A stretch of 64,000 nt of DNA from Pseudomonas gingeri (GTDB taxonomy: Bacteria; Pseudomonadota; Gammaproteobacteria; Pseudomonadales; Pseudomonadaceae): positions 62,001 through 126,000 of the forward strand of contig NZ_JACAOR010000014.1 of NCBI RefSeq assembly GCF_013386115.1, read 5' to 3'. Positions 31,474 through 34,099 of the stretch are shown one piece after another. The position numbers and the translations under genes are program-made. The notes under the pieces were generated by a model, which saw only the letters and a program-made list of their open reading frames with translations, was not told the origin of the DNA and did not search any database. Position 1 is the first letter of the stretch. Every line of letters starts with the position of its first letter.

Positions 31474-31578
31474 GGGGAGATACTCCTTTCAATAAAGTGC
31501 TGAGCCTACCGGATTCAGGCCGCTTTTTCCCGGCAAAAGTTCCTTGGGCGCGGCGCGTCAGGTCAACTGGTGTGCCCT

Positions 31579-31605
31579 TTATTCGCGGGCAAGCCCGCTC
31601 CCACA
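31579..31605. repeat. Single REP-type palindrome
   Basis: One unit, ATTCGCGGGCAAGCCCGCTC and following CCAC, just after the DAHP synthase stop. Confidence 0.75.
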
Positions 31606-31607
31606 GG

Positions 31608-32699
31608 TCAGGCCACCACCGCCGTGGCCGCATGCGGCTGGCGCAAGCGCTCGGCGGCGCCGCGCAGCAGCTGCTCCGTGGCCTCCCAGCCCAGGCAGCC
31701 GTCGGTGATCGACACGCCGTATTTCAAGGTGCCGCTCAACGGCTGGCAGCCTTCGAACAGGTGACTCTCCAGCATCATCCCGATCAGCGAGCGATCGCCC
31801 TGCTGGCGCTGTTCCAGCACATCGGCGAACACCGCCGGCTGGCGCAGCGGGTCCTTGCCGCTGTTGGCGTGGCTGCAGTCGACCATCATCCGCACGGGAA
31901 TGGCCTGCTTCTCCAGGCCTGCCCTGACCTGGGCGACGCTGTGGGCGTCGTAGTTCGGGCCGCGATGGCCGCCGCGCAGCACCAGGTGGGTGTCGCGGTT
32001 GCCGGCGGTCTGGATGATCGCCGGGTGGCCCTGGCCGTCGACGCCGAAGTGCCGGTGCGGATGCGCGGCCGAGCGCATGGCATCACCGGCGATGCCGACA
32101 CCGCCATCGGTGCCGTTCTTGAAGCCCACGGGCATCGGCAAGCCACTGGCCATTTCCCGGTGGATCTGCGATTCGGTGGTACGGGCGCCGATCGCGACCC
32201 AGCTCAGCAGGTCGTCGAAGTAGCTGGCGGCCATGGGCTGCAGCAGTTCGGTGGCAATCGGCAGGCCCATGCGCAGCATTTCACGCATCAGCTCGCGGGA
32301 CAGCGCCAGGCCGCCGGCCATATCGTCGCTGCCATCCAGGTGCGGGTCGTAGGCCAGGCCTTTCCAGCCGACGGTGGTGCGCGGTTTTTCGATGTAGGCA
32401 CGCATCACCAGGAGCATCTGGTCGCTGACGTCGTTCGCCAGGTTGGCCAGGTGTCCGGCGTATTCGAGGGCCGATTGCGGGTCGTGGATCGAGCAGGGAC
32501 CGACGATCACCAGCAGGCGCGGGTCTTCACCGTCGAGGATGGCGCGCACCGCCTGGCGGTGGCTGGCGACCTGGTCGCCCAGCGTTGTATTGAGCGGCAG
32601 GTGTTGCTTGAGCTGCAGGGCGCTGGGCAAGCGCCGGGTCAGCGGCTCGTTGGCGGACGACAGGGTGGACAGTGGCAGTGCAGAGAGTGACGAATTCAT
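31608..32699 (-). CDS. aroG: 3-deoxy-7-phosphoheptulonate (DAHP) synthase, class I
   Basis: Entry enzyme of the shikimate pathway, 363 residues, condensing phosphoenolpyruvate and erythrose 4-phosphate. Class I marks are VGPCSIHD, AYIEKPRTTVGWKGL, GARTTESQ and DCSHANSGKDP. ATG 32699 (MNSSLSALPLSTL) was chosen; a longer frame begins in the leader. The messenger leader holds an aromatic-rich peptide (33048-33179) and an intrinsic terminator (32961-33000), so expression is probably attenuated by charged Phe/Tyr/Trp tRNAs. Which amino acid inhibits this isoenzyme is not readable from sequence, so the aroG symbol is used for the family only. Confidence 0.9.
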   Translation of the reverse strand: MNSSLSALPLSTLSSANEPLTRRLPSALQLKQHLPLNTTLGDQVASHRQAVRAILDGEDPRLLVIVGPCSIHDPQSALEYAGHLANLANDVSDQMLLVMRAYIEKPRTTVGWKGLAYDPHLDGSDDMAGGLALSRELMREMLRMGLPIATELLQPMAASYFDDLLSWVAIGARTTESQIHREMASGLPMPVGFKNGTDGGVGIAGDAMRSAAHPHRHFGVDGQGHPAIIQTAGNRDTHLVLRGGHRGPNYDAHSVAQVRAGLEKQAIPVRMMVDCSHANSGKDPLRQPAVFADVLEQRQQGDRSLIGMMLESHLFEGCQPLSGTLKYGVSITDGCLGWEATEQLLRGAAERLRQPHAATAVVA

Positions 32700-32743
32700 G
32701 TTCGGGCTTCCTGGGCAGGCGGCGGGTCTTCCCGCGCGCGGCC

Positions 32744-32899
32744 CTACTGGGGTGTTCGACAATCAGCGGCCGGATTGGCTACGAGTGTGTGCTTGCCACC
32801 TGTGCGTGACCGTTCGGAGGCGGCGAGCTGTCCCGAGCGGAGGTTGCTAAATCGCCAGGCGGTGGTGAGTTCGTAGCGGTAGCAGGTGGCGTAGTTCAT
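32744..32899 (-). CDS. Small reading frame between attenuator and DAHP synthase
   Basis: A 51-residue frame starting MNYATCYRYELTTAWRF, with a strong ribosome site (GAGGAA, about 8 bases before ATG) and ending 44 bases before the DAHP synthase start. It lies after the terminator and so would be translated only on read-through transcripts. The first 17 residues contain three Tyr, one Trp and one Phe, hinting at a second aromatic-sensing or coupling peptide. No known family; could also be fortuitous. Confidence 0.45.
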   Translation of the reverse strand: MNYATCYRYELTTAWRFSNLRSGQLAASERSRTGGKHTLVANPAADCRTPQ

Positions 32900-32960
32900 G
32901 TCGGTGTTCCTCGATTCAAAATGTCTGGTTGAGCAGTCTGTTGAAAAAGCAGTGCGCTGA

Positions 32961-33000
32961 AAAAACAAAACCCCCGGTCGGGAGGCCGACCGGGGGTTGA
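32961..33000 (-). terminator. Attenuator terminator in DAHP synthase leader
   Basis: On the minus strand AACCCCCGGTCGG-CCTC-CCGACCGGGGGTT is a perfect 11-13 bp stem followed by TTTTGTTTTTT. It begins 47 bases after the leader-peptide stop and lies 262 bases before the DAHP synthase ATG, as expected for transcription attenuation. Confidence 0.88.
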
Positions 33001-33047
33001 GAATTCTCTGGTAGGCGACCCCTTGAGTAGTGGGCGCCGGTTGGGTA

Positions 33048-33179
33048 TCAGGCGCGCCAGTGGCTAAACCAATACCCAAAATAAAAACCTGCGGATGCAC
33101 GGGTGCCATTCATCCGCGCAGCCGCTGGCAAGCGCGGGGCGCTGACAGTCTGGCAAGGCGTGGAATGAACAGGATGCAT
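33048..33179 (-). CDS. Aromatic-rich leader peptide of DAHP synthase attenuator
   Basis: Forty-three-residue peptide with GGAG 7 bases before its ATG and a C-terminus GFYFGYWFSHWRA. Seven of its last 12 residues are Phe, Tyr or Trp (codons 33057-33086). An 8-bp complement, TTGGGTAT inside the Phe-Gly-Tyr codons (33072-33079) and ATACCCAA right after the stop (33041-33048), forms the early pause stem; the terminator follows. Ribosome stalling at aromatic codons would melt that stem and favour read-through. A shorter peptide from the internal Met at residue 23 is possible but has a weaker ribosome site. Not in standard gene calls because of its size. Confidence 0.85.
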   Translation of the reverse strand: MHPVHSTPCQTVSAPRLPAAARMNGTRASAGFYFGYWFSHWRA

Positions 33180-33340
33180 GGTGTGTCTCCGATAGAATGT
33201 GACCGAGCTTACTCGACGGGTGGGAACCTGTTCAATCAGAAATTTCTATGGACCGGGTCGTGCAGTCGCTATGGGTTAAATGCCGTAAACCTTTATGACA
33301 CACTTGTCGGACTTTTCTGATCCGATTATCAGGCCCGACC

Positions 33341-34099
33341 ATGACCACCCTGACCGTTGCCGCCGCCCAGTCCTTTTCCCTCGCCGGCGACCTGCCGGGC
33401 AATATCCGCCGGCACCTGCGCTTCATGCAGCAGGCGGCGGAGCAGGGCGTGGAACTGCTGGTCTTTCCCGAACTGTCCCTCACCGGTTATGAGCGCAGCC
33501 TGGCCGGTGCCCTGGCGATCGCGCCGGACGCGGCTGTCCTGCAACCCTTGCGGGACCTGGCGCGCGAGCTGTGCCTGGTGACCGTGGTCGGCATGCCGAT
33601 TCGCCTGTCCGCCGGCGGGCCGGTGCTGATCGGCGCGCTGACCTTCAAGGCCGATGGCTCCCAGCAGGTCTACAGCAAGCAGCACCTGCATGATGGCGAA
33701 GAGCAGGCCTTTGCCCCCGGAACGGGTGGCGCCACCCTGTCCATCGGCGACAACACCGTCGCTCTGTCAGTCTGTGCCGACTTTTCCCACGCCAGCCATG
33801 CCCGCCATGCCGCGCAATCTGGCGCTAACCTGTATGCAGCCGGTGTCTTGATCACCGGCAATGGCTATGCACCGGATACCGCGTTGCTGGAAGGGTATGC
33901 CCGTGAACATGCCATGGCGGTGTTGATGGCCAACCATGGCGGAGTCACTGGCGGCTGGGAGTCGGCCGGGCGCAGTGCGATCTGGGCGGAAGACGGGCAA
34001 CGGGTGGTTGCCGCGGCCGGGACGGGGGATGCGCTGGTGATCGGGCGACGTGTTGCCGGTCACTGGCGTGGCGAGGTGGTGGAGGTTTCGGGATGGTGA
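33341..34099 (+). CDS. Carbon-nitrogen hydrolase (nitrilase superfamily)
   Basis: A 252-residue cytoplasmic amidase-fold enzyme with the Glu-Lys-Cys triad visible: Glu in LLVFPELSLTGYE, Lys in VYSKQHLHDGEE, Cys in ALSVCADFSHASHA. Members hydrolyse amides or nitriles with small substrates. It is divergent from the DAHP synthase leader and overlaps the next gene, a GNAT acetyltransferase, by 7 bases, so the two are co-translated. Specific substrate not evident. Confidence 0.85.
   Translation: MTTLTVAAAQSFSLAGDLPGNIRRHLRFMQQAAEQGVELLVFPELSLTGYERSLAGALAIAPDAAVLQPLRDLARELCLVTVVGMPIRLSAGGPVLIGALTFKADGSQQVYSKQHLHDGEEQAFAPGTGGATLSIGDNTVALSVCADFSHASHARHAAQSGANLYAAGVLITGNGYAPDTALLEGYAREHAMAVLMANHGGVTGGWESAGRSAIWAEDGQRVVAAAGTGDALVIGRRVAGHWRGEVVEVSGW

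Follow-up and report, generated by a model that had tools for sequence, protein, structure and literature searches.

The minus-strand region ahead of a class I DAHP synthase gene in Pseudomonas gingeri is, with a probability of about 0.9, a transcription attenuator of the ribosome-mediated type, followed by a second leader cistron, and folds modelled with a ribosome at successive codons suggest that it would respond to starvation for aromatic amino acids. This upholds, at the same strength, a preliminary description of the DNA, in which an aromatic-amino-acid attenuator controlling DAHP synthase was proposed. Much of the attenuator coincides with an RNA listed in Rfam as the small RNA P15, and because P15 precedes a DAHP synthase gene at 61 of 61 Pseudomonadaceae loci the best reading of it is as that gene's attenuated leader RNA. 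The second cistron, ORF2, is a conserved frame between the terminator and the gene, and most likely serves to couple translation of DAHP synthase to its own.

Anatomy of the locus

All attenuator elements lie on the minus strand, and coordinates are those of the window, the whole 64,000-nucleotide stretch of DNA that was analysed. Their order is a promoter-like block, leader peptide 1, an 8-bp stem, a terminator, ORF2, a hairpin and the DAHP synthase gene. The putative promoter block (33206..33235), read from the sequence, consists of TTGAAC (33235-33230), an 18-nt spacer and TAAGCT (33211-33206). In an alignment of 34 same-genus loci the TTG is conserved and a AGTAAGCTCG-like block is mostly conserved upstream of leader 1; a sigma-70 consensus scan called no promoter at 33206..33235. 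Leader 1, taken from the list of open reading frames and the sequence, runs from 33179 to 33048, has 43 residues and ends FYFGYWFSHWRA, just as the preliminary description stated, with GGAG (33190-33187) preceding its ATG. Its aromatic codon run, FYFGYWF, occupies 33086-33066, which corresponds to codons -12 to -6 before the stop. The 8-bp stem that had been described across the aromatic codons and the post-stop bases is likewise present, and we refer to it as the protector hairpin (33041..33079). Here UUGGGUAU (33079-33072), made up of the end of the third aromatic codon and the Gly and Tyr codons of leader 1, pairs with AUACCCAA (33048-33041), which consists of the final base of the leader 1 stop and the bases following it.

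Three further segments were delineated between the aromatic codons and the terminator. Segment 2 (GGCGCGCC, 33051..33058) comprises the last codons of leader 1. When the locus is folded to minimum energy with a ribosome modelled at different positions, segment 2 pairs with segment 3 if that ribosome has stalled upstream. Segment 3 (GGCGCCC, 33032..33038) is, from folds and pair counts, the partner of segment 2 in antitermination or of segment 4 in termination. Segment 4 (GGGGTCGCC, 33014..33022) pairs either with segment 3 or, as antiterminator, with GGTCGGCCTC at 32991-32982, which is part of the terminator 5' arm and loop. The strong intrinsic terminator expected ahead of the gene was recovered by a terminator scan (32960..32998) as a 13-bp stem at 32998-32969 followed by the T-rich tail TTGTTTTTT. 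On the minus strand between 31500 and 33400 the scan returned only this terminator and a shorter stem within it, hence no second intrinsic terminator for ORF2, and a Rho-dependent site may exist there. The leader RNA from 33205 to 32961 folds at -100.2 kcal/mol compared with -80.2 +/- 4.7 for shuffled versions (z = -4.26; 0 of 200 shuffles as good).

The match to Rfam RF00627 ("P15, Pseudomonas sRNA") covers 32971..33090 on the same strand and spans the end of leader 1 and the attenuator structures. The locus is a member by score (130.2 bits against a gathering score of 70), and the model omits the first part of leader 1 and ORF2. Elsewhere in the window, a match to RF02647 (Ruegeria cis52 sRNA) was seen at 263-433 on the plus strand, with 60.1 bits against a cut-off of 56, far from the group that gave the family its name.

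Downstream of the terminator lies ORF2 (32744..32899), a frame of 51 residues with a Shine-Dalgarno (SD) motif GAGGA at 32912-32908 and a TAG stop at 32746-32744. The preliminary description took 32744 as its lower bound, which is the stop codon of this frame, and left the frame itself unmentioned. A core of 73 nt (32791..32863), beginning 6 nt before the W codon, is defined by an ungapped alignment of 21 sequences; it contains TGGCGATTTAGC at 32857-32846, with GCCGCC and GGTGGC blocks downstream. Folding places a hairpin, P3 (32713..32744), between the ORF2 stop and the SD of the next gene (AGGA, 32712-32709). That gene (31608..32699) encodes a class I DAHP synthase of 363 residues, in agreement with the earlier assignment (NCBIfam TIGR00034, 438 bits; Pfam PF00793, 259 bits). 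Its best named match is 98% identical and comes from Pseudomonas gingeri strain D8001, and the nearest solved structure by sequence is the Tyr-sensitive 6agl (382.9 bits), Phe-sensitive enzymes scoring about 350 bits.

P15 distribution and the modelled switch

P15 occurs in a single copy in this genome. In a first sample it was detected in 34 of 36 same-genus genomes (this one included) and in none of 21 from other families. Of 298 genomes sampled from the bacterial family, 244 had it, in 14 of 19 genera; in a sample of the order it was in 21 of 244 genomes, 12 of them in two further families, one with weak scores only. A weak second match in one genome, found without a leader (L064), was removed before all counts. 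A DAHP synthase motif follows P15 in an open frame of the same orientation at all 61 Pseudomonadaceae loci, a set comprising 34 of the genus from the first sample and 27 from the family sample (four of the genus and 23 of other genera), and at all 12 loci in other families P15 likewise lies upstream of a DAHP synthase motif in the same orientation. These 12 all have an aromatic leader 1 as well, and a terminator-like stem is visible by eye. Among genomes lacking P15, 18 were tested (17 of the 54 unmatched in the family sample and one from the first sample), and in all 18 the sole DAHP synthase type is one that is 50-53% identical to the enzyme described here; the P. gingeri genome has the present enzyme plus a second one of that 50-53% type. 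In one genus of the family with small genomes (L059-L061) the P15 match is weak, at 44-54 bits, and the protector stem is altered. In five genomes (G016, G306, G186, G083 and G238) weak antisense matches of 29-32 bits were seen beside the real P15, and these perhaps stem from the palindromic terminator.

The preliminary description suggested looking for the same leader before DAHP synthase in other pseudomonads, and an aromatic leader end is found at all 61 Pseudomonadaceae loci. In each of them the motif [G/A]-Y-W-[F/Y] lies near the end of leader 1. Together with the score of the P15 match and its spread through the family, this places the element well outside what chance would give. Counting from the stop, F, Y or W occupies positions -12, -11, -10, -8, -7 and -6 in 53, 53, 54, 60, 61 and 55 of the 61 loci, in a table that is blurred by five loci which stop three codons earlier; the W at -3, outside the stall window, is kept in 22. 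Another 80 named Pseudomonas loci were retrieved via the DAHP synthase protein and therefore show the reverse association only. A combined pattern of leader 1 and terminator matched 70 of these, with 68 of the 70 leaders ending FYFGYWFSHWRA, and the remaining ten show the leader end by eye (nine have an altered terminator arm and one locus starts inside the leader).

The pairs that the switch would need were counted across the 61 loci. Standard pairing is kept in 56-61 loci for the six core pairs of the protector hairpin and in 56-61 for the 11 terminator arm pairs counted. In the 3:4 helix the outer four pairs are kept in 57-61 loci and the inner three in 45, 59 and 61, and in the antiterminator the first seven are kept in 50-61 and the last two in 35 and 14. 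In a fixed register, each pair of the 2:3 helix is preserved in 43-55 of some 60 loci; by eye, the register shifts between lineages. The low counts in the 2:3 helix, for one inner pair of 3:4 and for the last two antiterminator pairs weigh against the switch model.

For the switch itself, a ribosome was placed codon by codon near the end of leader 1, the free downstream RNA was folded up to the terminator loop, and the fraction of the 13-base terminator 5' arm held by upstream sequence was recorded at the 61 loci. With the A site at codons -12 to -5, antiterminator pairing averaged 0.52-0.61. The mean was 0.30-0.38 from -4 to the stop, and at -16 to -13, a placement that lets the protector hairpin form, it was 0.41-0.42. 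Past the stop, at positions that no translating ribosome would occupy, the modelled pairing climbs back to 0.52-0.57. When the upstream sequence was shuffled, pairing stayed at 0.49-0.56 with little trend. A contrast of more than 0.1 was obtained in 49 of 61 loci compared with 34 of 183 shuffled versions, 12 loci falling below the threshold; in this comparison the shuffles preserve base composition and not dinucleotides, the loci are related, and kinetics are ignored. The whole-arm readout was adopted post hoc, after folds showed the antiterminator holding the GGTCGGCC part, and the first readout, the CCCC of the terminator arm alone, had given little contrast (means of 0.23-0.36 over 60 loci, L059 being skipped where the terminator pattern was missed). 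The folds of the P. gingeri locus agree, with segment 2 pairing with 3 and segment 4 with GGTCGGCCTC when the ribosome is upstream, and segment 3 pairing with 4 when it is near the stop. The modelling over 61 loci thus supports the attenuator reading in that the conserved aromatic codons sit where a stalled ribosome favours the antiterminator. What is found here is a leader ORF with a ribosome-binding site (RBS), a run of codons for the products of the pathway, an intrinsic terminator before the structural gene and, in silico, an antiterminator that depends on ribosome position.

We propose the following course of events. A shortage of Phe-, Tyr- or Trp-tRNA would stall the ribosome within FYFGYWF and open the protector hairpin, so that segment 2 binds segment 3 and segment 4, now free, captures some of the terminator 5' arm; RNA polymerase would then continue into the DAHP synthase gene. 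With sufficient aromatics, a ribosome at the last codons would cover segment 2, segments 3 and 4 would pair, and the terminator would form, releasing a short RNA that would correspond to the "sRNA" P15. If no ribosome occupies these codons of leader 1, the protector hairpin can form and termination would again be favored. Read-through transcripts would carry ORF2, Tyr-rich and with its W-R-F signature, the stop of which adjoins the RBS of DAHP synthase. Translation of DAHP synthase would most likely be coupled to that of ORF2, which could add a second, translational check on the supply of aromatic tRNAs.

ORF2, a second leader frame

An ORF2 frame open from an ATG lies between the terminator and the gene at all 61 Pseudomonadaceae P15 loci, and at all 80 named Pseudomonas loci, six of which have an ORF2 region identical to that of an earlier locus. 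Its length, taken from the farthest upstream in-frame ATG within 75 bases, is 27-54 codons in the 61 loci. An SD-like motif precedes that ATG in 56 of them; of the five without it, four have such a motif before a nearer in-frame ATG. Tyr makes up 208 of the 844 residues before the Trp codon, with two to five at each locus, and the signature that follows is WRF in 59 of 61 loci, WRY in one and GRF in one. At 58 of 61 loci the signature is encoded by the same nine bases, TGGCGATTT; TAG serves as the stop codon at 54. As side observations, the last codons of ORF2 (32744-32761 and equivalents) are near-fixed, with TGT in 86, CGA in 86 and ACA in 84 of 86 fifty-codon versions, and CGAAC occurs within the last 24 bases in 52 of 61 loci.

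Among 86 distinct versions of 50 residues, the synonymous share of single-base codon differences before the W is 0.57 against 0.21 expected; in the ORF2 core it is 0.48 against 0.27 and in the rest of ORF2 0.33 against 0.25, in counts that are pairwise and hence not independent. From the synonymous excess before the Trp, ORF2 looks selected as a translated frame. That ORF2 exists as a conserved, translated frame is very probable, a regulatory role is likely though less firmly so, and sensing of aromatics by ORF2 is a tentative idea that we rate at somewhat under even odds. ORF2 itself returned no Pfam, NCBIfam or Rfam match, both leader peptides stayed blank in Pfam and NCBIfam up to E = 1, and Rfam at a loose threshold over ORF2 gave one chance match only (E = 1.7). 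The 21 aligned core sequences come from two families and were chosen by means of a pattern that itself prescribes some of the bases (21 of 22 tried fitted; L018 did not). A core model, R1, has one strong match in the P. gingeri genome (88.8 bits) and two weak ones (E of 0.09 and 0.28), and under strict filters was found in two of 369 genomes of a class sample, P. gingeri included.

Beyond the family, an ORF2 with W-R-F is present in seven of the 12 other-family loci (L166, L167 and L172-L176). In family f43, leader 1 and the terminator are kept in L168 and L170, where ORF2 is degenerate with a short MYRYQP-type frame, and also in L165, L169 and L171, where ORF2 was not found; ORF2 may have been lost within this family. 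A further locus found through the ORF2 model, L180, has both leaders and a DAHP synthase gene. Four ORF2s outside the family share the ungapped 73-base core with Pseudomonas.

The junction between ORF2 and its gene was examined for hairpins; L027, whose DAHP synthase start was misassigned, was excluded both from this analysis and from the masking tests below. Between the stop and the SD, a hairpin of -8 kcal/mol or lower was found in 55 of 60 loci, with a median z of -2.6 over the 60 and 45 at -2 or lower against mononucleotide shuffles. In the 55 loci, the base of the hairpin starts a median of 2 nt past the stop's first base and ends a median of 1 nt short of the SD. In L059-L061 the hairpin is absent and the SD of DAHP synthase comes directly after the ORF2 stop, which is a compact version of the same double leader. 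Counted from the first base of the ORF2 stop, the ATG of DAHP synthase in family f36 lies at -1 in L173, 8 in L174, 6 in L175 and 20 in L176, and in L172 at -1, 2 or 29 according to which start is used. It lies at 5 in L180, and in L166 and L167 of family f43 it is 32 bases from the stop, a distance that counts against coupling. A stop beside the RBS, either directly or across a looped-out hairpin, would fit translational coupling, and we infer coupling of DAHP synthase to ORF2 to be the likeliest role of the frame.

Another possibility is that ORF2 is an erm/cat-type translational attenuator, in which the W-R-F segment pairs with the RBS of DAHP synthase until stalling of a ribosome at the aromatic codons exposes that site. 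Several shuffle comparisons point this way. With a modelled ribosome at W, the unpaired fraction from SD to AUG rises from 0.47 to 0.56, against 0.52 and 0.52 for base-shuffled ORF2 (60 loci); the complementarity of W-R-F and RBS is -13.3 kcal/mol compared with -10.2 for shuffled RBS regions (60 loci); and RBS pairing peaks at the W-R-F segment when set against codon-shuffled ORF2 (57 loci). The identity of TGGCGATTT in 58 loci can also be counted for masking. However, exchanging W-R-F and RBS partners between species gave p = 0.09 over 60 loci and 0.36 over 33 non-redundant ones, in a swap test whose power is low as the W-R-F segment hardly varies. The accessibility of the SD alone is flat, at 0.43 with no ribosome and 0.44 with a ribosome at W (22 up and 21 down of 57 loci), and the openness of the RBS is alike in real and codon-shuffled ORF2 (Wilcoxon p = 0.33, 57 loci); L059-L061, with fewer than 20 bases from stop to start, were left out of the codon-shuffle and SD accessibility tests. 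Moreover, in only five of 60 loci does the W-R-F window have the best complementarity within ORF2, and in 24 it ranks in the top three. Because the shuffle signals are unmatched by the swap and SD accessibility tests, masking of the SD by ORF2 is kept only as a rival reading, and an unlikely one. The internal structure of ORF2 was also examined by a consensus fold of 29 loci. Helices in the core (21 sequences) are near-invariant, with no two-sided change in 13 pairs and hence no covariation support, and the stretch 32960-32680, folded as a single sequence, gained no stability over its shuffled versions (z = 0.92). A likeness of ORF2 to tRNA arms or to the ops pause element is weak and was set aside.

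Translation of bare RNA protects it against Rho. ORF2 could therefore merely shield the read-through RNA, its translation covering an otherwise bare stretch of some 260 bases and its aromatic content being incidental. We consider this doubtful, since protection leaves unexplained both the 208 Tyr in 844 residues before the W and the near-fixed TGGCGATTT. It is still less probable that ORF2 serves to make a functional micropeptide, which might for instance target DAHP synthase, in place of a regulatory leader. The coding constraint in its N-terminal part (0.57 versus 0.21 expected) and the conserved W-R-F would favor a micropeptide, but ORF2 ranges from 27 to 54 codons in length and is loose in the part that precedes its last five codons. 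The signature codons CGA and TTT are near-fixed although they are minority choices in four neighbouring genes (CGA in 4 of 97 Arg codons and TTT in 12 of 51 Phe codons); this suggests a role at the level of the RNA and speaks against a micropeptide.

Translational coupling is the preferred role for ORF2. On a bolder reading, one DAHP synthase mRNA would carry two successive aromatic-codon sensors, first the P15 attenuator and then, on transcripts that get past it, the translationally coupled ORF2 leader, with its W-R-F segment nearly fixed in its bases, which would gauge the supply of aromatic tRNAs a second time during translation, an arrangement that we regard as possible but a little short of an even chance. 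If true, ORF2 and its 73-base core would constitute an undescribed regulatory element present in at least two families of one order.

P15 as a probable leader RNA among known leaders

The trpL, pheL, ilv, leu and his leaders are well-known amino-acid transcription attenuators. The P. gingeri region resembles them in having a leader peptide with codons for the product, the protector, antiterminator and terminator hairpins, and a biosynthetic gene downstream. It differs from them in that all three aromatics are encoded within one seven-codon run and in that a second leader ORF follows the terminator. The preliminary description had set the joint sensing of Phe, Tyr and Trp apart from single-amino-acid leaders, and codons for all three do occur together in FYFGYWF; multi-aromatic leaders of DAHP synthase genes are, however, not unprecedented. 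In Corynebacterium glutamicum, a Phe-Tyr-Phe leader precedes aroF and attenuation has been proposed (PMC4046766), and in Acholeplasma a uORF/terminator motif, uORFC-13-1, has a Phe-coding U run before aroF (PMC8632094). Both are aromatic leaders before DAHP synthase for which, in the parts of these papers that concern them, attenuation is proposed; both belong to other phyla, and a second leader ORF is not described in those parts. For Shewanella aroF, a passage citing E. coli work notes an "attenuator sensing tyr-tRNA" (PMC2659441). Because aromatic leaders before DAHP synthase have already been proposed elsewhere, the kind of system is known, and the present locus is a new instance of it together with a reassignment of P15.

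Double leaders also have a precedent. The mgtCBR leader of Salmonella contains two short ORFs, mgtM and mgtP, which are described as responding to the signals ATP and proline, both acting transcriptionally (PMC3641672). The P. gingeri leader would likewise contain two short ORFs, judging from conservation and coding constraint. In contrast to mgtM and mgtP, both are rich in aromatic residues, and on the minus strand from 31500 to 33400 the scan gave no further intrinsic terminator for the second.

Rfam types P15 as an sRNA gene, whereas we take it to belong to the attenuator RNA that is terminated ahead of DAHP synthase. A paper from 2008 counts it as one of the P. aeruginosa sRNAs that Livny and colleagues had detected (PMC2375449), but that P15 should act mainly in trans, its site before DAHP synthase being incidental, is very improbable given that the site and orientation are constant at all 61 Pseudomonadaceae and 12 other-family loci, that P15 carries an aromatic leader with a switch predicted to depend on ribosome position, and that a cis element was already suspected there from synteny, albeit as a riboswitch in the passage concerned (PMC2527527). 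The RNA released by termination may have a secondary role in trans.

Word searches of the main text of a survey of premature 3' ends in P. aeruginosa for P15, DAHP, tryptophan and aromatic (PMC8297930), and of a survey of premature terminators for aroF, aroG, DAHP, phenylalanine and P15 (PMC2965389), gave no hits. In the open-access literature we found no paper tying P15 or leader 1 to DAHP synthase, nor one describing the combination of an aromatic attenuator with an aromatic-rich second leader conserved across families. Vitreschak and colleagues reportedly treated attenuation in proteobacteria in 2004, and that work could hold a prediction of leader 1.

The attenuator reading gives a likely function to an RNA that is listed in Rfam as an "sRNA" without a stated role. 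Pseudomonads serve as hosts for the production of aromatic chemicals. For these bacteria, P15 and its leader peptide would be a probable means of setting the level of the first enzyme of the aromatic pathway. If both leaders sense the supply of aromatics, the region would be a compact case of double control on one mRNA.
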